64,000 nt of DNA from Fimbriimonadaceae bacterium. Lineage in GTDB: Bacteria > Armatimonadota > Fimbriimonadia > Fimbriimonadales > Fimbriimonadaceae. Below the pieces are notes generated by a model. That model did no database searches, had not been told where the DNA came from, and saw nothing but the letters and a program-made list of their open reading frames with translations. The translations under genes and the position numbers were made by a program. Below, in pieces: positions 28,418 through 37,530 of the stretch; the stretch's first letter is position 1, and the number at the start of each line of letters is the position of its first letter. The stretch covers positions 2,138,734-2,202,733 of the forward strand of contig JABAQM010000001.1 of NCBI GenBank assembly GCA_019187105.1, in the 5' to 3' direction.

Positions 28418-29881
28418 ATGGTGTTGCTTGCGGTTCTGACTTCGCTCGCCATCCAGCAGCGCAGCCTTACCTTTGAGACCTCGCTGAAGAGCGTGGCCAT
28501 TTTTCGCGATGGCTTTGGATACTACGTCCGCGAAGGACAGGTCAAGCTGGAAAACGGCTGGGCGACAACCAATTTCGTCCCCGCAGCCGTTCGTGGAACG
28601 ATTTACTTTTATACGCTCGACAAGGGCGATCGGATCGACACGGTCATCACAACAAAGGACAATCGGCTTGAATTCGGCAGTCCAGCGGAGTTAAGAACCA
28701 AGCTTAGCGACAAGATCGGGCTGCGGCTCGTCGTGACCACCAGCAGCGGTCAGCGTTTCGAGGGAGAACTGGCCAAGCTGCTGGACGATATGCTTCTCCT
28801 GCAGGTCGGACAAGGCTATAGCGCGGTTCCGTACGCCCAGATCGCAGCGATCAGCCTGCCCGGATTTCCCGTCAAATTGAAGATCGATGGCAAAGATCCC
28901 AATAAGCTAACGCGATTGGGTGTCGCATATTTGCAGGACGGCATTCGCTGGGAGCCGAGCTACGTTCTCAACGTCAGTGGATCGACCGCCAACTTGCAGT
29001 TACGGGCAACCCTTCACAACACCACCGAAAGCCTGAGCAAGAGTGAGGTGCTTTTCGTCGTCGGTTCGCCGTTTGTTTCGAACCGTGGCATTCCGGACAT
29101 CTTTGGCACGAGCGCTGTGCCCGTCGACGCGAACAAGGGCGTCGAAGCTCCTGCCGCAAAGTCTCCTGAGCGGCCGGGAACGGCGGAGTCCGGTGGCAGC
29201 GCGGCCCCGCCACCAATGGCAGCGATCGCCGGTGAAGAGGCGGGCGAGCTTTATTTCTATCGAAAGCCCAACCTGTCGCTGGCCACGAACGATATCGCGA
29301 TGGTTTCGATCTTCCAGCAGGACGTGCCGATTTCTCCTTCGTTCGACTGGAATGCAGACGGTGAAGAGGTGATCTATCTTCTTAATATCAAGAACGTGAC
29401 GAAGCAGCCGCTCACCACGGGGCCTGTTTTCGTCATCGAGGACGGCAAAGCGGTCGGACAGGAAACCATACGATATACGCCTGCCGAGGGCTCTGCCGAG
29501 CTGCGCCTGTCGAGGGGTATCGGGCTTCGAGTGGAGAAAACGGAAGCCGAGCAGAAGCGGGGATCCGCCGTTCGCATCGGCCGGTCCGACTTCGTGCCGG
29601 TGACGCTAAAGGGGACCCTGTCGATAACCAACTTTCGGACGACTGCCGCCGAGGTTCGCGTGACCAAGACGGTGCGCGGCAAGGTGGTTTCGCAGTCACA
29701 TGGCGGGACCATTCGCAACACCCAGACCTTGTCCGGCGAAGTGAATCCGATCAACGACCTCCTTTGGAAGGTGAAGCTCACACCGGGAGAAACGGTCTCG
29801 ATAACCTACAACTTCGAGACCTTGATGTTCAGCGATCGTTCGGGTACTCCGCCGGTGCCCGAGAAGCCGGACGGCGGATAA
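28418..29881 (+). CDS. DUF4139 domain protein, secreted or membrane-associated
   Basis: 487 residues. The N terminus (MVLLAVLTSLAIQQRSL) is a short signal-like segment. The central and C-terminal parts match DUF4139 architecture: VAYLQDGIRWEPSYVLNVSGS, then LRATLHNTTESLSKSEVLFVVGSP, then long beta-rich stretches ending VSITYNFETLMFS. A Pro/Ala/Gly-rich linker sits near residues 240-270. Biochemical function of the family is unknown. The next gene starts 1 nt after the stop, so they form an operon with the BNR-repeat protein. Confidence 0.75.
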   Translation: MVLLAVLTSLAIQQRSLTFETSLKSVAIFRDGFGYYVREGQVKLENGWATTNFVPAAVRGTIYFYTLDKGDRIDTVITTKDNRLEFGSPAELRTKLSDKIGLRLVVTTSSGQRFEGELAKLLDDMLLLQVGQGYSAVPYAQIAAISLPGFPVKLKIDGKDPNKLTRLGVAYLQDGIRWEPSYVLNVSGSTANLQLRATLHNTTESLSKSEVLFVVGSPFVSNRGIPDIFGTSAVPVDANKGVEAPAAKSPERPGTAESGGSAAPPPMAAIAGEEAGELYFYRKPNLSLATNDIAMVSIFQQDVPISPSFDWNADGEEVIYLLNIKNVTKQPLTTGPVFVIEDGKAVGQETIRYTPAEGSAELRLSRGIGLRVEKTEAEQKRGSAVRIGRSDFVPVTLKGTLSITNFRTTAAEVRVTKTVRGKVVSQSHGGTIRNTQTLSGEVNPINDLLWKVKLTPGETVSITYNFETLMFSDRSGTPPVPEKPDGG

Positions 29882-29882
29882 C

Positions 29883-32060
29883 TTGAGGTGGGTCGGTCAT
29901 TGCCTGCGAGCCGGCGTTTGCGCTGGCCTCCTACTGGTTGCTGGTGCTTTGCCTGCCGGCTCGGAGAGCCTACGAAAGACAGGGCTTGTCAGCCGTGATC
30001 TTTATAACCAGCGGCAGTCCCAGTTCTCAGATTCGGGCAAGGCCGAGAATCATCTAAGTGCCTTTCAAAGGCTTCAGCGAATGCCGTTGTACCGAGTAGA
30101 GGGCGGAAATGGCCCGCAATGGGTGGAGATCGGGCCAAGAACCATTCGGTCGGGTTGGGGCGGTATGGACAATGCGGGTCGGATGACGGCCATCGTCGTA
30201 CATCCGCATAGCCGGCAGATCGTTTATGCGGCGGCGGCATCTGGCGGCATCTGGAAATCGGAAGACTTTTGCCGAACGTGGCGTCCAATCGCCGACGATC
30301 TGGCGAGCTTGTCTTACGGTGCGTTGGCCATCGATCCCACCAACCCCCAGGTCATGTACGCCGGCACCGGCGAGCCACACTACTCGTTCGACAGCTTTCC
30401 GGGCGTTGGCATCCACCGCACGCGGAACGGTGGCGAGACGTGGGAGCTGATCGGGTCTGAGACCTTCGCGGGGCATTGCTTCACGCGGCTTATCTGCCAT
30501 CCCAGCCGACCGGGGTTCATTTACGCCAGCACCACCGGTGGCGTTTATCGGAGCACCGATGGCGGAGCCCGTTGGGTTAGGTTGCTCTCGGGCGCTGCCA
30601 GTGACCTCATCATCGATCCACGGTCACCCGACACGCTTATAGCCGCACTGGGCGTTCCGTGGGGGAGCCCTGTCAACGGGTTGTACAAGACGCGCGACGC
30701 CGGCCAGCAGTGGACACGGTTGACCAAAGAATTGCCGGCTAACGGCTGGCAGATGGGACGAATCCAGATGGACCTTTGCCGAGCATATCCGAACGTGGTT
30801 TATGCCTCGGTCTATGGGTCGTTTGGAGCCCTAATCGGTATTTACAGGTCATCGGATTTCGGCGAATCATGGCTGCGGCTCCCGAACGCCCTCGACTACG
30901 GAGGAGGACAGGCTTGGTACGACAACTATCTAACGGTTAGCCCGACGAACCCCAATGTCGTTTTCGCGGGCGGAACGAGCACCTTTCGAACGGTCGACGG
31001 TGGCGCGAGTTGGGAGGACAACACGCGTTCCTACGCAGGTGGCCCCGTTCATCCTGACCATCATACGATGACCTTCGATCCACACGACACCCAGACCGTC
31101 TATATGGGCGGCGACGGGGGCATCTTCCGGTCGCGCGACCTGGGTGGAACGTGGGAATCCGTTTCTGCCGGCCTCGGTACCGTTCAGTTCCAGTACGTGG
31201 ATGTCCATCCTACGGATAGTTCGATAGCTTACGGTGGAACTCAGGATAACGGGACCAACAAGTTCACCGGTTCGCAGGACTGGAACCACATTTTTAGCGG
31301 TGATGGCGGCGTCACGCGGGTCAATTGGAAGCAGCCAGAGGTGGTCTATACGGAATACGTCAACCTCAGCATCTTCAAATCAAACGATGGCGGCAGGAGC
31401 TGGCGCTATGCGGTGAATGGGATCGATCTCGGGGAGGGGGCGCTCTTCTATGCCCCCTATAATCTGGACCCGAGCAATCCGGACATCCTCGTTGCCGGTA
31501 CGCAAAGCGTTTGGCGGTCAACGGATGGCGCCGATTCATGGAAGCGCGCAAGCCCTCCGTTGGGCGGGTTGGTATCGGCGATCTCCATCGCCCCTAACAA
31601 CAGCGCCGTCATTTACGCTGGTACCACGAGCGGCGCGGTTTGGGTCACCGCCGATACCGGAAAGACCTGGTTCGATATCACTGCGCGCTTGCCACGCGCT
31701 TACATCGGCGACTTCGCAATCGACCCGCGGAACGCTCGCCACGTTTATATGACTCAGGTCGGTTGGGGTGGCAACCGGATTTGGGAAACAACCGACGCGG
31801 GCGCCACATGGACGGCGATGGGGGATGGACTTCCAGGGGTACCCATTAGAGCCGCCGCCCTCCATCCCCGAAATCCGGAAACTATCTTCCTGGGTACCGA
31901 AATGGGGGTCTATATTTCAACAGAGGGCGGCAGGAACTGGCGCCGCTTTGGTTCCGGACTCCCGAACGCCCCGGTTTTCTCGCTCGTCGTCAACGGTGTG
32001 ACCGGCTACGTTACCGTCGGTACTCACGGTCGAGGCGCTTGGCGCGCTCGCCTGCCGTAG
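29883..32060 (+). CDS. Secreted BNR/Asp-box repeat beta-propeller protein
   Basis: 725 residues. The start is TTG 29883 directly after the DUF4139 stop, giving a signal peptide (LRAGVCAGLLLVAGALPAGS). Twelve Asp-box-like motifs of form S/T-x-D-x-G-x-T-W are visible, e.g. TRNGGETWELI, STDGGARWVRL, SSDFGESWLRL, SNDGGRSWRYA, TTDAGATWTAM, spaced 45-70 residues, each followed by NPxxVYAG-type strands. This is the sortilin/xyloglucanase-like propeller fold (GH74/VPS10 type). Catalytic Asp pairs of GH74 cannot be assigned by eye; an enzymatic or adhesive role is open. Confidence 0.82.
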   Translation: MRWVGHCLRAGVCAGLLLVAGALPAGSESLRKTGLVSRDLYNQRQSQFSDSGKAENHLSAFQRLQRMPLYRVEGGNGPQWVEIGPRTIRSGWGGMDNAGRMTAIVVHPHSRQIVYAAAASGGIWKSEDFCRTWRPIADDLASLSYGALAIDPTNPQVMYAGTGEPHYSFDSFPGVGIHRTRNGGETWELIGSETFAGHCFTRLICHPSRPGFIYASTTGGVYRSTDGGARWVRLLSGAASDLIIDPRSPDTLIAALGVPWGSPVNGLYKTRDAGQQWTRLTKELPANGWQMGRIQMDLCRAYPNVVYASVYGSFGALIGIYRSSDFGESWLRLPNALDYGGGQAWYDNYLTVSPTNPNVVFAGGTSTFRTVDGGASWEDNTRSYAGGPVHPDHHTMTFDPHDTQTVYMGGDGGIFRSRDLGGTWESVSAGLGTVQFQYVDVHPTDSSIAYGGTQDNGTNKFTGSQDWNHIFSGDGGVTRVNWKQPEVVYTEYVNLSIFKSNDGGRSWRYAVNGIDLGEGALFYAPYNLDPSNPDILVAGTQSVWRSTDGADSWKRASPPLGGLVSAISIAPNNSAVIYAGTTSGAVWVTADTGKTWFDITARLPRAYIGDFAIDPRNARHVYMTQVGWGGNRIWETTDAGATWTAMGDGLPGVPIRAAALHPRNPETIFLGTEMGVYISTEGGRNWRRFGSGLPNAPVFSLVVNGVTGYVTVGTHGRGAWRARLP

Positions 32061-32211: not shown

Positions 32212-33303
32212 ATGTCGTCCGGTGAACCGACGACAGTTTCCGCCGATGGTCAGCCGATAACCCACGATCCGGATGACCAGTCGATGGTCGAACGCAAACC
32301 CGCGCTGCCCTTCTATGTCGCTGGCATTGGAGCTTCAGCCGGGGGCCTCGAAGCGATGACCGAGCTGTTCGGCAATCTGCCGAACGTCACCGGCATGGCG
32401 TTCGTCGTGGTTTCCCATCTTTCGCCTAAGCATCCAAGTCTGCTGTCGGAGATTTTGGGACGGGCCACGAACATGACCGTCGTTGAAGTTCAGGACGAGC
32501 CTGAGGTTCAGCCAAACACCGTGTATGTCATTCCGCCTGGCCGGGTGATGGTGATGGATCAAGGCAAGCTTTGGCTAACCGACCGGCTGGGCGCCCAGGC
32601 CAACCATAGGCCCATCGACAAGTTCCTGCGCTCCCTTGCCGAGGAGCAACGAAACCACTCGATCGGAGTCATCCTGAGCGGCTCGGCTTCAGACGGGACG
32701 CTCGGTTGCGAAGAGATCAAGGCAATGGGTGGACTCGTTTTTGCCCACGAAGACCGCTCACCGTCCCGCTCGGAGGGAGGCTTGGGTATCGGCCTGACGT
32801 TGGTAAAGAAACTGACCGAAATGCATGGCGGCCGAGTCACCGTTGAAAGCGACGGCGCCGAAAAGGGAAGCACGTTTTCAATCGACCTGCCCGCCGTGCA
32901 ATATGCCCAGAACGCCGTACCCCAAACGGCAGCGGAGGTAACGATGGTTATCCCAAGGAAGATCGTCATCATCGATGACAATCTCGACGCGGCGAACGTG
33001 ATGTCGCGTCTTTTGGAGGTCTCGGGCCACCATGTCACGACGATTCACGACAGCGCCTCGGTCCAGGAGGCCATCCGGACCAGCGGCGCGGACATCGCCA
33101 TTCTCGATATTGGGTTGCCTGAAATCGATGGCTTTGTGCTGGCGAAGATGATCCGCAAGGAATTCGGTGACAAGATCCGACTCATTGCCCTAACGGGCTA
33201 CGGCGACGACGCCGACCGGCGTCGGGGTACCGAAGCTGGGTTCGATTACTACTTCACCAAGCCTGTCGACTTCATCGAACTGCGTCGGGCTCTTTTGCCG
33301 TAA
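32212..33303 (+). CDS. CheB methylesterase domain joined to histidine-kinase remnant and receiver domain
   Basis: 363 residues with a good ribosome site (GGAGG before ATG). Residues 34-180 are a CheB-type methylesterase with all three catalytic residues: Ser42 (GIGASAGG), His69 (SHLSPKH) and Asp161 (GSASDGTLG). At about residue 180 the sequence switches directly into the last third of a kinase ATPase domain (SRSEGGLGIGLTLVKKLTEM, 185-204, then ESDGAEKGSTFSIDLP). H-box, N-box and G1 box are missing. Residues 250-363 are a receiver domain with Asp299 in AILDIGLP. This looks like a large CheB/CheR/PAS/kinase/receiver protein that lost its middle in frame. Confidence 0.85.
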   Translation: MSSGEPTTVSADGQPITHDPDDQSMVERKPALPFYVAGIGASAGGLEAMTELFGNLPNVTGMAFVVVSHLSPKHPSLLSEILGRATNMTVVEVQDEPEVQPNTVYVIPPGRVMVMDQGKLWLTDRLGAQANHRPIDKFLRSLAEEQRNHSIGVILSGSASDGTLGCEEIKAMGGLVFAHEDRSPSRSEGGLGIGLTLVKKLTEMHGGRVTVESDGAEKGSTFSIDLPAVQYAQNAVPQTAAEVTMVIPRKIVIIDDNLDAANVMSRLLEVSGHHVTTIHDSASVQEAIRTSGADIAILDIGLPEIDGFVLAKMIRKEFGDKIRLIALTGYGDDADRRRGTEAGFDYYFTKPVDFIELRRALLP

Positions 33304-33327: not shown

Positions 33328-33403
33328 GGGGATGTAGCTCAGTTGGGAGAGCGGTTCGTTCGCAATGAACAGGTCGTGGGTTCGAATCCCATCATCTCCA
33401 CCA
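33328..33403 (+). tRNA. tRNA-Ala (anticodon CGC)
   Basis: 76 nt folds as a full cloverleaf: acceptor GGGGATG / CATCTCC with the alanine identity pair G3-U70, D-arm GCTC..GAGC, anticodon stem GTTCG / TGAAC with loop TTCGCAA (anticodon CGC at 33361-33363 within the loop), T-arm GTGGG-TTCGAAT-CCCAT. The CCA end is encoded (33401-33403). Confidence 0.97.
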
Positions 33404-33486: not shown

Positions 33487-34089
33487 TCAAGTGGACGGCT
33501 CGTCGATATCGGCGAGGACGCCTTCCACGGGGATGGGCATGACTCTGGATAGGTGGTCGCCAATGATAGAGCGTGCGCCCTCGTCGCCGGCCAGTCCAAG
33601 CAGCCGGGTTCGATGGGCGGCGCCGAACAGAATAGGATGCCCGAGGCGATCCGGTTCGGCGGAATAGACGGGGGCGAGGATTGAGTCGGGCGGTGCGGTC
33701 TCAAAGGCGCCAAGCATTTTCTCGATGACTTCGGGTCGGATGCCGGGCATATCGCCCAGTGCGATCAGGTAGCCGTCTGCCGTTCCTGCGGCACGCACTC
33801 CCCAGGCGATCGAGGCACCGAGACCCTTGGCGAAGTCCGGGTTGTGGGCAACTTTGACCCTAGCCCCCCAGTCCCCTGCCTCGGCTTCGCCGGCACCGGG
33901 GGAGACGGCGGCCACGATGAGGTCCGACTGGTGGCCGCTGACAACCATGACTTCGAGGTCGCACGAGACGAGCGCTTCCACCGTCCATCTGACGATAGGT
34001 TTGCCGTGCCAGTCGGCAAGGAGCTTGTTGGCGGCGCCATAGCGGGTCGAGAGGCCGGCGGCGGGAACGATAGCCTTAACGATTCGCAC
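33487..34089 (-). CDS. MobA-like nucleotidyltransferase, probably molybdenum cofactor cytidylyltransferase
   Basis: 200 residues. N-terminal nucleotide loop VPAAGLSTRYGAANKLLADW (8-27) and LGDMPGIRPEVI, where MocA/CoxC-type enzymes carry GDQP or GDMP. Enzymes of this group add CMP to molybdopterin for the xanthine-dehydrogenase family. It is the last gene of the operon 2Fe-2S subunit, Mo subunit, XdhC, this gene, and overlaps xdhC by 14 nt, which supports the cofactor role over other sugar-nucleotide activities. Confidence 0.83.
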   Translation of the reverse strand: MRIVKAIVPAAGLSTRYGAANKLLADWHGKPIVRWTVEALVSCDLEVMVVSGHQSDLIVAAVSPGAGEAEAGDWGARVKVAHNPDFAKGLGASIAWGVRAAGTADGYLIALGDMPGIRPEVIEKMLGAFETAPPDSILAPVYSAEPDRLGHPILFGAAHRTRLLGLAGDEGARSIIGDHLSRVMPIPVEGVLADIDEPST

Positions 34090-35029
34090 GCCCCACCTGG
34101 ACGATCTCGGCCATGATGCTCAGGGCGATTTCTTCCGGGGACCGAGCGCCGATATCGAGGCCGATAGGGCCGTGAATGCGCTCGAGATCCGACTCAGAGA
34201 AGCCCTGCGAATCAAGGTAGCGGCGGCGCTTCTCTTGGGTTACCCGGCTGCCGAGGGCGCCGATATAAGCAACCTTCGAGCGAAGGAGAACGGTCAAGGC
34301 GACGTCGTCGATTTTGGGATCGTGGGTGAGGACAGCGGCATAGATCCGCCCGTTCAGATCGACCTGGCTCAGGGCTTCCTCGGGCCATGCGACGATCGTG
34401 TGATCGGCGGGGACGGGGAACCGTTCAGGCGCAGATAAAGCTAGTCGCGGATCGATCAAAACGGTTTCGAAACCAAGTTCCCGAGCGAATTTGATCAGCG
34501 GCACGGCGATGTGGACAGCGCCGATGATAACGAGCCGATTTCGCGGACCGAAAACCTGGACGAACAGTTCGCGCCCCTCCCGCTCGATGGCGACCGACTC
34601 CGTGAACTCTCCGGGTTCCGCAATCCACGATCCGCCGCCGCTCAAGTCGGTGACGAGACTGACGGGTTCATCCCGGTCGATCCGCTCTGCAAAATCCTGC
34701 CAAGCTTCCGAGTGGTAGGGCTCAGGCTGGACAAAGATGCGGATGCGACCGCCGCAGGATAAGCCCACCTCCCACACGCTTTCGTCGGACAGCGATCCGA
34801 AGTCAAGGAGTGTCGAGCTTTTTGAGGCCAGGGAATCGATCGCGGCCTGCATGACGGCTGGTTCGACGCATCCCCCAGAGACGGATCCGACGACGACTCC
34901 GTCCTCTCGGACTCCCATGACAGCACCGAGGGGTCGAGGGGATGAGCCCCAGGTTTGTACGACCGTCGCAATCGCGTAGCGCCGCCCGTCGCCTTGCCAC
35001 TTCTGCAAGGTTGGCAAGACGTCGCGCAA
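34076..35029 (-). CDS. xdhC: XdhC/CoxI family molybdenum hydroxylase maturation factor
   Basis: 317 residues. Both XdhC domains are seen: N-terminal (TVVQTWGSSPRPLGAVMGV near 23-41, SVSGGCVEPAV near 49-59 and GLSCGGRIRIF) and C-terminal Rossmann-like (VIIGAVHIAVPLIKFARELG near 170). XdhC proteins deliver sulfurated molybdenum cofactor to hydroxylases. The start is TTG at 35029, 3 nt past the Mo-subunit stop. The order between the Mo subunit and MocA matches a maturation cassette. Confidence 0.88.
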   Translation of the reverse strand: MRDVLPTLQKWQGDGRRYAIATVVQTWGSSPRPLGAVMGVREDGVVVGSVSGGCVEPAVMQAAIDSLASKSSTLLDFGSLSDESVWEVGLSCGGRIRIFVQPEPYHSEAWQDFAERIDRDEPVSLVTDLSGGGSWIAEPGEFTESVAIEREGRELFVQVFGPRNRLVIIGAVHIAVPLIKFARELGFETVLIDPRLALSAPERFPVPADHTIVAWPEEALSQVDLNGRIYAAVLTHDPKIDDVALTVLLRSKVAYIGALGSRVTQEKRRRYLDSQGFSESDLERIHGPIGLDIGARSPEEIALSIMAEIVQVGRANR

Positions 35030-35032
35030 GGA

Positions 35033-37072
35033 TTACACCAGATCCTCGATTCGGATCGGGAACTTGCGCGCGCGTTTGCGGGTGGCGGCAAAGACCGCGT
35101 TGGCGATGGCGGCAGGAGACGAGGGATATCCGACCTCGCCCATGCCCCCGAAGTTGCCGCCGCTTTCCTCGACGAACACCTCCATTCTAGGCGGAGCATC
35201 GAGCATCCGCGCCCATTCGTAGGCGTGCCAGTTGTCCTCCACTACACCTCCGGCTTCGACGGAGATCTTGGCTTTCAGTGCGGTGGAGATACCGTCCATG
35301 AATGCGCCCTGGACCTGGGCTTCAATGGAGAGCGGATTTACGGCAAGGCCGGGATCGACGACGGCAACCATCCGGGTCACTTGAATCTCCGAGCCTTTGA
35401 CGGTGACATCGACCACATGGGCGATGCATGAGCCGTAGCCCTCGAAGCAGGCGACGCCACGGCCTGATCCCTTAGGTACTGGGGCTCCCCAATCAGCGTG
35501 CTTGGCCACGGAATCGAGCACCTTGCGCAGCCGATCGCTCTTCATGAGCTTGAGCCGGAACGCAAGCGGGTCGGCTCCGGCGGCGTGGGCCAGCTCGTCG
35601 ATGAAGCACTCGTTGGCAACGACGATCTGGGTGTGTTCAACCGACCGCCAGGGGCCTGTTGGGACGGGAGAAGGGACCTCCGCGGCCCGCATAGCGGCGC
35701 CCGGAATGTTGTAGGGAAGGTAAGCCCCGTCGCGATAGTCGCCGCTTCTGGCACCCGCGGCCTGCAGGTACTGATGGCTCCATCCGGTGGGGTTGCCCGC
35801 CTCGTCGAGCGCCGCCTTCATCGCATGCTCGCTCATGGGCCGATAGGCATCGTGCTGCATGTCGCACTCTCGCGTCCAAAGGAGCTTGACCGGCTTCTTG
35901 ACCCTGCGGGAGAGATCGACTGCTTCCATGATCCACTCGTTGGAAAACTTGCGTCCGAATCCACCTCCAAGAAGGGTGTTGTTGACCTTGACCTTCTCCT
36001 TGGCAAGGTCGAGGGCTCGGGCGATTTGGCCCTGGGCGCTATCGGGCGATTGGGTACCGGTCCAAACCTCACAGGCATCGGCACGAACATCGGCAACCGC
36101 GTTAGGCGGCTCCATGGTCGCGTGGGCGAGATAAGGAAGTTCGAAGCTGGCCTCGATCACCTTTGCCCCGGCCATCTCCTTATGGGAGACGGCGGCGGCT
36201 TTCAGATCCTTTCGGAGCTTGCTGGTGGTGACGTCGGGTTGGCCGCCACTCCATATCACATTGAGAAGGCTACGGCCTTTCAGGGCAGCCCATGTGGTCT
36301 TGGCGATCACGGCGATGCCGCTCGGGATGGTGATGATGTCGGTGACGCCAGTGACCGCCCGGGCCTTCTTATCATCGATGGTCTCAGGTTTTGCGCCAAA
36401 GGCTGGAGGGCGCAGGCAGCAGGCGAACACCATTCCGGGCACGGAAACATCGCCGGCGAAGATCGCCTTTCCGGTTACCACGTCGGAGTTGTCAACGCGC
36501 TTCGTCGGCTTGCCGAGGATCTTGAATGCAGACTTGTCCTTGAGCTGAACGTTTTCGGGAACCGGCATCCCCTGGGCTGCTTCGGCGAGCTCGCCATAGC
36601 CTATAGACTTGCCTTCCGGGCCAAGAACGCGGCCGCTCTCTGTTCGGCAGGCGGCAGCATCGACCCCCCACTTCTTGGCCGCGGCGGCGACCAGCATGAG
36701 ACGGGCGCTTGCACCGATGGTGCGCAGCTGGCGATTCATTCCTCGGGTGCTGCTGGAGCCCCCCGTTCCTTGACGACCGTACTTCGCATCGTCGCCAGGA
36801 GCGTTGACCGCCTTGACCTTTGCCCAGTCGGCATCGAGTTCTTCGGCCACGAGCATCGCAAACCCCGTTCGCACACCCTGGCCCATATCTGAGCGGGTGA
36901 TCATCACCGTGACGGTGCCATCGGGGTCGATCTTCAGGAACGCGTTGGGAGCGAAGGGAGTGGAACTCGCACGAGCTCCGCAGGCTGCTCCCGCAAAGCC
37001 TCCCAGAACGAAGGTCGCGCCGGTGCCGGCAATCACCTTCAGTAAGGTCCTTCGAGTGAGCGTAGGGTTCAT
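35033..37072 (-). CDS. Molybdopterin-binding subunit of an aldehyde/isoquinoline-type oxidoreductase, Tat-exported
   Basis: 679 residues from ATG 37072, which has AAGGAG 5 nt upstream. A twin-arginine signal (TRRTLLKVIAGTGATFVLGG) leads into a xanthine-oxidase-family Mo subunit resembling isoquinoline 1-oxidoreductase beta (IorB): TVTVMITRSDMGQGVRTG, TVGGSSSTR-like GTGGSSSTRGMNRQLR, LGGGFGRKFSNEWI, VPTGPWRSVEHTQ, and a C-terminal GMGEVGYPSSPAAIANAVF. With the [2Fe-2S] partner it would hydroxylate an N-heterocycle or oxidise an aldehyde in the periplasm. No FAD subunit is encoded. It overlaps the upstream 2Fe-2S gene as ATGA. Confidence 0.9.
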   Translation of the reverse strand: MNPTLTRRTLLKVIAGTGATFVLGGFAGAACGARASSTPFAPNAFLKIDPDGTVTVMITRSDMGQGVRTGFAMLVAEELDADWAKVKAVNAPGDDAKYGRQGTGGSSSTRGMNRQLRTIGASARLMLVAAAAKKWGVDAAACRTESGRVLGPEGKSIGYGELAEAAQGMPVPENVQLKDKSAFKILGKPTKRVDNSDVVTGKAIFAGDVSVPGMVFACCLRPPAFGAKPETIDDKKARAVTGVTDIITIPSGIAVIAKTTWAALKGRSLLNVIWSGGQPDVTTSKLRKDLKAAAVSHKEMAGAKVIEASFELPYLAHATMEPPNAVADVRADACEVWTGTQSPDSAQGQIARALDLAKEKVKVNNTLLGGGFGRKFSNEWIMEAVDLSRRVKKPVKLLWTRECDMQHDAYRPMSEHAMKAALDEAGNPTGWSHQYLQAAGARSGDYRDGAYLPYNIPGAAMRAAEVPSPVPTGPWRSVEHTQIVVANECFIDELAHAAGADPLAFRLKLMKSDRLRKVLDSVAKHADWGAPVPKGSGRGVACFEGYGSCIAHVVDVTVKGSEIQVTRMVAVVDPGLAVNPLSIEAQVQGAFMDGISTALKAKISVEAGGVVEDNWHAYEWARMLDAPPRMEVFVEESGGNFGGMGEVGYPSSPAAIANAVFAATRKRARKFPIRIEDLV

Positions 37073-37530
37073 CGGGACTCCTTGGCCACCGCTTTCACTG
37101 CCTGTAAAACGCGATAGTAGGTTCCGCAACGGCAGATGTTGCCGTTCATTGCTTCACGGATCTGCTCGTCCGTCGCTTTCGGATTGCTCCGCAGGAGAGC
37201 GGCTGCGGCCATGATCTGGCCGGTCTGGCAGTACCCGCATTGGGGAACGTCGTGCTCGATAAAGGCCTTCTGCAAGGGGTGATCGCCGTTGCGGCTGAGG
37301 CCCTCGATCGTGACGATTTTGCTCCTGCCCACCTCAGCAAGGGTCATTTGGCAGCTTGTCGCCGCCTTGCCGTCAATGAGGACGGTGCATGCGCCGCAAC
37401 TGCCCACCCCGCACCCATATTTGGTTCCGTTCAGGTTGAGAAGATCACGCAGGGCCCAAAGGAGAGGCATATCGCCTTCGGCTTCGAGGGAGTGCTCCTT
37501 GCCGTTCACCTGGATCTTGAAGAGTGGCAT
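37069..37530 (-). CDS. [2Fe-2S] subunit of the molybdenum hydroxylase (IorA-like)
   Basis: 153 residues. The N-terminal plant-type ferredoxin cluster is CGVGSCGACTVLIDGKAATSC (four Cys, about residues 40-60); the C-terminal cluster is CGYCQTGQIM and NGNICRCGTYYRV (about 99-140). ATG 37530 gives the normal start (PLFKIQVNGKEHSL) with GGAGG upstream; the frame is open further upstream only as a shadow of other genes. First gene of the hydroxylase operon. It has no Tat signal, so it is presumably carried across the membrane with the Mo subunit. Confidence 0.94.
   Translation of the reverse strand: MPLFKIQVNGKEHSLEAEGDMPLLWALRDLLNLNGTKYGCGVGSCGACTVLIDGKAATSCQMTLAEVGRSKIVTIEGLSRNGDHPLQKAFIEHDVPQCGYCQTGQIMAAAALLRSNPKATDEQIREAMNGNICRCGTYYRVLQAVKAVAKESR

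Follow-up and report, generated by a model that had tools for sequence, protein, structure and literature searches.

With moderate confidence, we interpret the gene at positions 32212-33303 of the window (the whole 64,000-nucleotide stretch analysed here) as an in-frame deletion remnant of a giant CheB-CheR kinase, with its receiver still usable and its CheB domain crippled. The open reading frame lies on the forward strand, as do all its parts, exactly where the first-pass annotation had placed it, and encodes a protein of 363 aa. According to the reading frame and Pfam, this protein consists of a truncated CheB, a scrap of a kinase ATPase domain and a receiver. The CheB methylesterase-like part occupies residues 38-180 (32323-32751). 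Pfam matches CheB_methylest over residues 38-182 with an E-value of 3.4e-42, covering profile positions 2-144 of 174, and the PF01339 score of 144.6 bits exceeds the cut-off of 24. The catalytic triad is kept: Ser42 in GASAGG, His69 in SHLSPKH and Asp161 in SASDGT. The following C-terminal HATPase_c scrap (residues 181-229; 32752-32898) contains the G2 box GLGIGL. Its Pfam match, over residues 182-228 (5.2e-08), corresponds to profile positions 64-109 of 111, that is, to the last 46 positions. A variable linker of residues 230-249 (32899-32958), recognized from the alignment and its low pLDDT, leads to the receiver at residues 251-361 (32962-33294). The Response_reg profile (PF00072) matches residues 251-361 at 2.7e-20 over positions 1-110 of 111. 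The receiver is complete, with the acid pocket including D256, the phosphorylatable Asp299 in ILDIG, T328 and K350, and its pLDDT is about 90. The first-pass annotation had also called the receiver intact and had named the triad and Asp299, and all of this agrees with our data.

No Pfam match to CheR, PAS or HisKA was found in the 363 aa, nor anything else of substance. The protein has no H, N or G1 box, as had been claimed, since HisKA is missing and the HATPase_c match begins only at profile position 64 of 111. Thus, the product can no longer act as a kinase. The GC content is 0.59 across the gene, equal to that of its surroundings and without a seam, so that composition gives no sign of a recent transfer.

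In order to locate the switch between the two parts, each residue was scored against two profiles, built from 23 CheB and 43 kinase sequences. The change from CheB-like to kinase-like is sharp and occurs after residue 175-181 (credible range; 32734-32754). The most likely breakpoint is 180|181 (E180|D181), or nucleotides 32751|32752, which falls inside the interval of 32740-32772 proposed in the first reading. MAFFT places a single gap here, which follows residue 182 and spans 1,094 columns; with more rows aligned, it follows residue 180 and spans 1,110. The junction is far beyond chance, because its CheB side and its kinase side are each independently significant. It had been supposed that the string EDRS is common to both parents and that the deletion used micro-homology at DRS. 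It turned out that CheB relatives read FAQD-P-x-S at this place, while kinases read F-x-Q-x-D-R-S. The D-R at the junction is therefore of the kinase type, and DRS was rejected as a shared string. The common ground is limited to F177, Q/H at 179 and, loosely, S183; the F-x-Q of residues 177-179 is an in-register motif of both parents. In 11 intact giant proteins, the CheB and kinase ends share no more than 5-6 bases, which does not exceed shuffled sequences. Micro-homology at the junction is possible, and the DRS version of it finds no support.

Full-length homologues do exist. CheB, CheR, PAS_10/PAS, HisKA, HATPase_c and REC were found by Pfam in this order in three intact giants of 1262-1445 aa: L080 from the same phylum (1382 aa, CheB-CheR-PAS-HisKA-HATPase-REC), L030 from Burkholderia sp. 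Leaf177 (1262 aa) and L033 from an Oligoflexia MAG (1445 aa). Their first and last ~180 residues match our protein in order and register, with 42-46% identity in CheB and 38-43% in the tail. What it lacks is their middle, namely the CheB tail, CheR, PAS, HisKA and the N and G1 boxes of HATPase. From the coordinates, the missing part amounts to about 1,012 residues relative to L080, 905 relative to L030 and 1,029 relative to L033. The ends are thus homologous to those of the giants and collinear with them across the single gap, which speaks for descent and not for function. Proteins of 1257-1571 aa that start with CheB and end with kinase and receiver were further found in many genomes of Bdellovibrionota, on plasmids of Paraburkholderia and Caballeronia (L101-L103) and in contigs from IMG/VR (L106-L111); for these, the comparison covers the ends. 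Five of the IMG/VR proteins (L106, L107, L108, L110 and L111; 1377-1384 aa) are on contigs filed as viral and may be either cargo genes or bacterial DNA that was binned as viral. In the literature searched, CheB-CheR hybrid kinases receive passing mentions only; for example, a "CheB-CheR hybrid" is mentioned for Rhodospirillum centenum (PMC2890560).

Two other shortened proteins were observed among the kinases. A 318-aa kinase of Burkholderia sp. Leaf177 (L139:2049-3005) starts at HATPase, seems to lack HisKA and has a receiver at its end; it is apparently another truncated hybrid kinase. In a hybrid kinase of the same family (L074; G177:C82:4668-5219), a TAA stop cuts the receiver off from the ATPase, possibly a second kind of decay in these proteins.

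The anatomy of the gene is observed directly, and from it we infer the following history. The ancestor would have been a giant hybrid sensor kinase with the architecture CheB-CheR-PAS-PAS-HisKA-HATPase-REC, most like L080. An in-frame loss of ~900-1,030 codons (2.7-3.1 kb) would then have joined the final strand of CheB ahead of the MPRSAI helix to the ATP-lid/G2 box. Such a loss from a CheB-CheR-PAS-kinase-receiver ancestor had been suggested in the first-pass annotation, and it is supported by the giants of the same order, by the single large gap and by the lack of a full-length copy in the readable genome. The parent itself is inferred, because the best relatives are 43-55% identical and a close full-length orthologue is not known. 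Within the family, no giant above E=1e-30 for the CheB part was found.

We also assessed whether the protein could have had two parents, CheB coming from a giant or a CheB gene and being fused in frame, through illegitimate recombination, to the tail of a different hybrid kinase. The two halves indeed differ in their best matches. For the CheB part, the highest similarity is to giants of Bdellovibrionota (50-55%), whose kinase-receiver tails are only 30-35% similar to ours; the tail is best matched by GAF or PAS hybrid kinases of the same phylum (45-46%). A clade of the tail with the six closest Bdellovibrionota giants was rejected with p-AU 0.0008, and with all ten at 4e-05, although the groups of the constraint tests were picked after the similarity table and the p-values are somewhat optimistic. 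A Bdellovibrionota-type giant is therefore ruled out as the single parent. Three kinase-less CheBR giants of the same phylum (L015, L067 and L068) were likewise rejected as a clade with the CheB part (p-AU 0.04). Giants of this kind (L085 and L086; ~1000 aa) have a CheB half 44-48% identical to ours, but they end in PAS domains and carry no kinase-receiver tail. Constraining our protein together with L080 gave p-AU 0.39 for CheB and 0.63 for the kinase-receiver part, the latter with an even higher likelihood. In free trees, neither half obtains a supported position, which leaves the constraint tests as the informative ones. Since L080 was not rejected for either half, a single L080-like parent is compatible with both, and an internal deletion in a giant of the same phylum survives the test. 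Moreover, the giants show exactly this domain order and frame, and the hybrid kinases of the genome itself are just 33-36% similar to the tail and thus were not its donors. We consider a fusion of two genes rather unlikely.

Reading the gene as a deletion remnant raises the question of what the CheB part can still do. The C-terminal ~35-40 residues of CheB (the MPRSAI helix, a strand and the last helix) are missing, and the full fold is not present, the profile match ending at position 144 of 174. AlphaFold2 (13 rows) gave a pLDDT of roughly 70-88 in the CheB core, about 90 in the receiver and 31-49 in the scrap and linker at 180-245. As a control, we modelled the intact CheB domain of L033 (8 rows). 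There, the lost region consists of a helix at 159-166, a strand at 172-174 and a helix at 176-192, with a pLDDT of 86-98 for the block. As this region is ordered in the control and its replacement scores below 50, the models suggest that an ordered piece of the CheB fold was lost with the deletion. Residues 32-178 fold like the CheB catalytic domain of T. maritima (3sft) and CheB of S. typhimurium (1chd/1a2o), but these structures keep the C-terminal helix-strand-helix where our protein has kinase-derived sequence. When residues 32-205 of the model were aligned to positions 156-344 of the 3sft chain (VIA; Z 20.4, rmsd 2.2, 162 aligned), the kinase-derived helix 193-204 overlay the C-terminal helix of CheB, with a pLDDT below about 50. 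A CheB fold patched by this helix may be taken as a low-confidence lead. Of the 36 strongly conserved CheB positions, 32 are kept; two conserved residues, Gln179 and Gly159, are replaced. With the helix-strand-helix missing, methylesterase activity is probably low or absent, even though the triad is present.

The first-pass annotation had instead proposed a working methylesterase in which phosphorylation of the receiver acts, by way of the ATPase scrap, on the core of CheB. The retained Ser-His-Asp and the 32 conserved positions are in its favour, and the MCP and CheR encoded in the genome mean that substrates are possible. This proposal nevertheless appears doubtful given the lost helix-strand-helix, the low confidence of the modelled replacement and the changes at Gln179 and Gly159. 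The genome already has two canonical REC-CheB proteins (L141:2259-3368 and L142:1761-2783), one of them in the che cluster. They share the Ser-His-Asp core and a receiver with our protein, but in the latter the order of receiver and CheB is reversed: the receiver is C-terminal and of the hybrid-kinase type, the CheB tail is missing, and the gene is outside the che cluster. Taken together, we hold receiver-controlled methylesterase activity to be improbable. The che cluster is located at C1:332-340 kb and our gene at C1:2,170,945. Because two REC-CheB, one CheR, one MCP and a CheW are encoded in or near that cluster, chemotaxis does not obviously seem to need the gene.

The surroundings of the gene were also compared with those in relatives. 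Directly downstream is a neighbour that is not part of it, a tRNA-Ala (CGC) at 33328-33403 on the same strand. Upstream, at 28418-32060, a 487-aa protein is paired with a 725-aa Vps10/sortilin-like beta-propeller (by eye); the pair is conserved in several related genera, where the beta-propeller has 51-66% identity. At 33487-37129 on the reverse strand are a MobA-like nucleotidyltransferase, an XdhC-like protein and a xanthine-dehydrogenase-type large subunit (by eye); relatives (L134-L136) share the MobA-Xdh arrangement. The flanks are thus two separately conserved blocks that do not stand together in relatives, which places the gene at a lineage-specific boundary next to the tRNA-Ala. Synteny revealed no CheB-REC gene beside either block in relatives, and no promoter or terminator signals were found at the locus.

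The genus is represented by one genome. Matches covering both halves of the protein were found neither in 100 relatives nor in 291 genomes of the phylum, 398 of the Burkholderia phylum and 369 of the Bdellovibrionota phylum, with the best 5-6 candidates per genome scored in the latter three sets. A second example of the short architecture, which the first reading had proposed to seek in relatives, was found neither among about 1,060 genomes nor among 72,556 plasmids. Four plasmid matches (H1-H4) reached 71-98% coverage when their parts were joined, but these parts proved to be separate genes lying side by side.

This uniqueness could be explained if the gene were really full length and its middle had been dropped in assembly. 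The second contig of the genome (G000:C2, L140; 2,528 bases), which reads all N, would allow for this as well. However, a collapse needs a repeat, and the ends of the giants share bases at chance level only, as described above; around the locus there is no direct repeat of at least 14 bases. Furthermore, the two parts are joined exactly in frame, the readable contig comprises 3.30 Mb, the genome is 99.55% complete, and no full-length copy or leftover giant-type CheR or PAS_10 occurs elsewhere in the readable genome. There is only a slim chance that the gene is an assembly artefact. The idea that the deletion made a newborn, functional two-domain response regulator with enzyme output, the kinase-derived helix replacing the C-terminal helix of CheB and the former hybrid-kinase receiver controlling the methylesterase, is very improbable.

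For the deletion remnant, the state of its parts bears on its age. In the kinase scrap, 14 of 16 strongly conserved positions are retained, and its leave-one-out profile score exceeds that of 35 of 43 intact kinases. The CheB core ranks 5 of 23 and the receiver 14 of 43 from the bottom, which is ordinary for divergent members. The undrifted ATP-binding G2 box suggests that the event is recent, on the time scale of this lineage, or that the scrap is still under constraint. Since the receiver is complete, the remaining function of the protein is presumably that of a stand-alone receiver or a phosphate sink; the receiver could still be phosphorylated by another kinase or by small phosphodonors.

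Apparently, we are dealing with gene decay or with domain shuffling, in a form that is rare but mechanically ordinary; the gene is most likely a decay intermediate known from one genome. The 363-aa protein should not be annotated as a chemotaxis CheB. It illustrates neatly how a single in-frame event might convert a giant sensor with many domains into a small protein resembling a response regulator. Were it functional, it would demonstrate how new pairings of receivers and enzymes arise.
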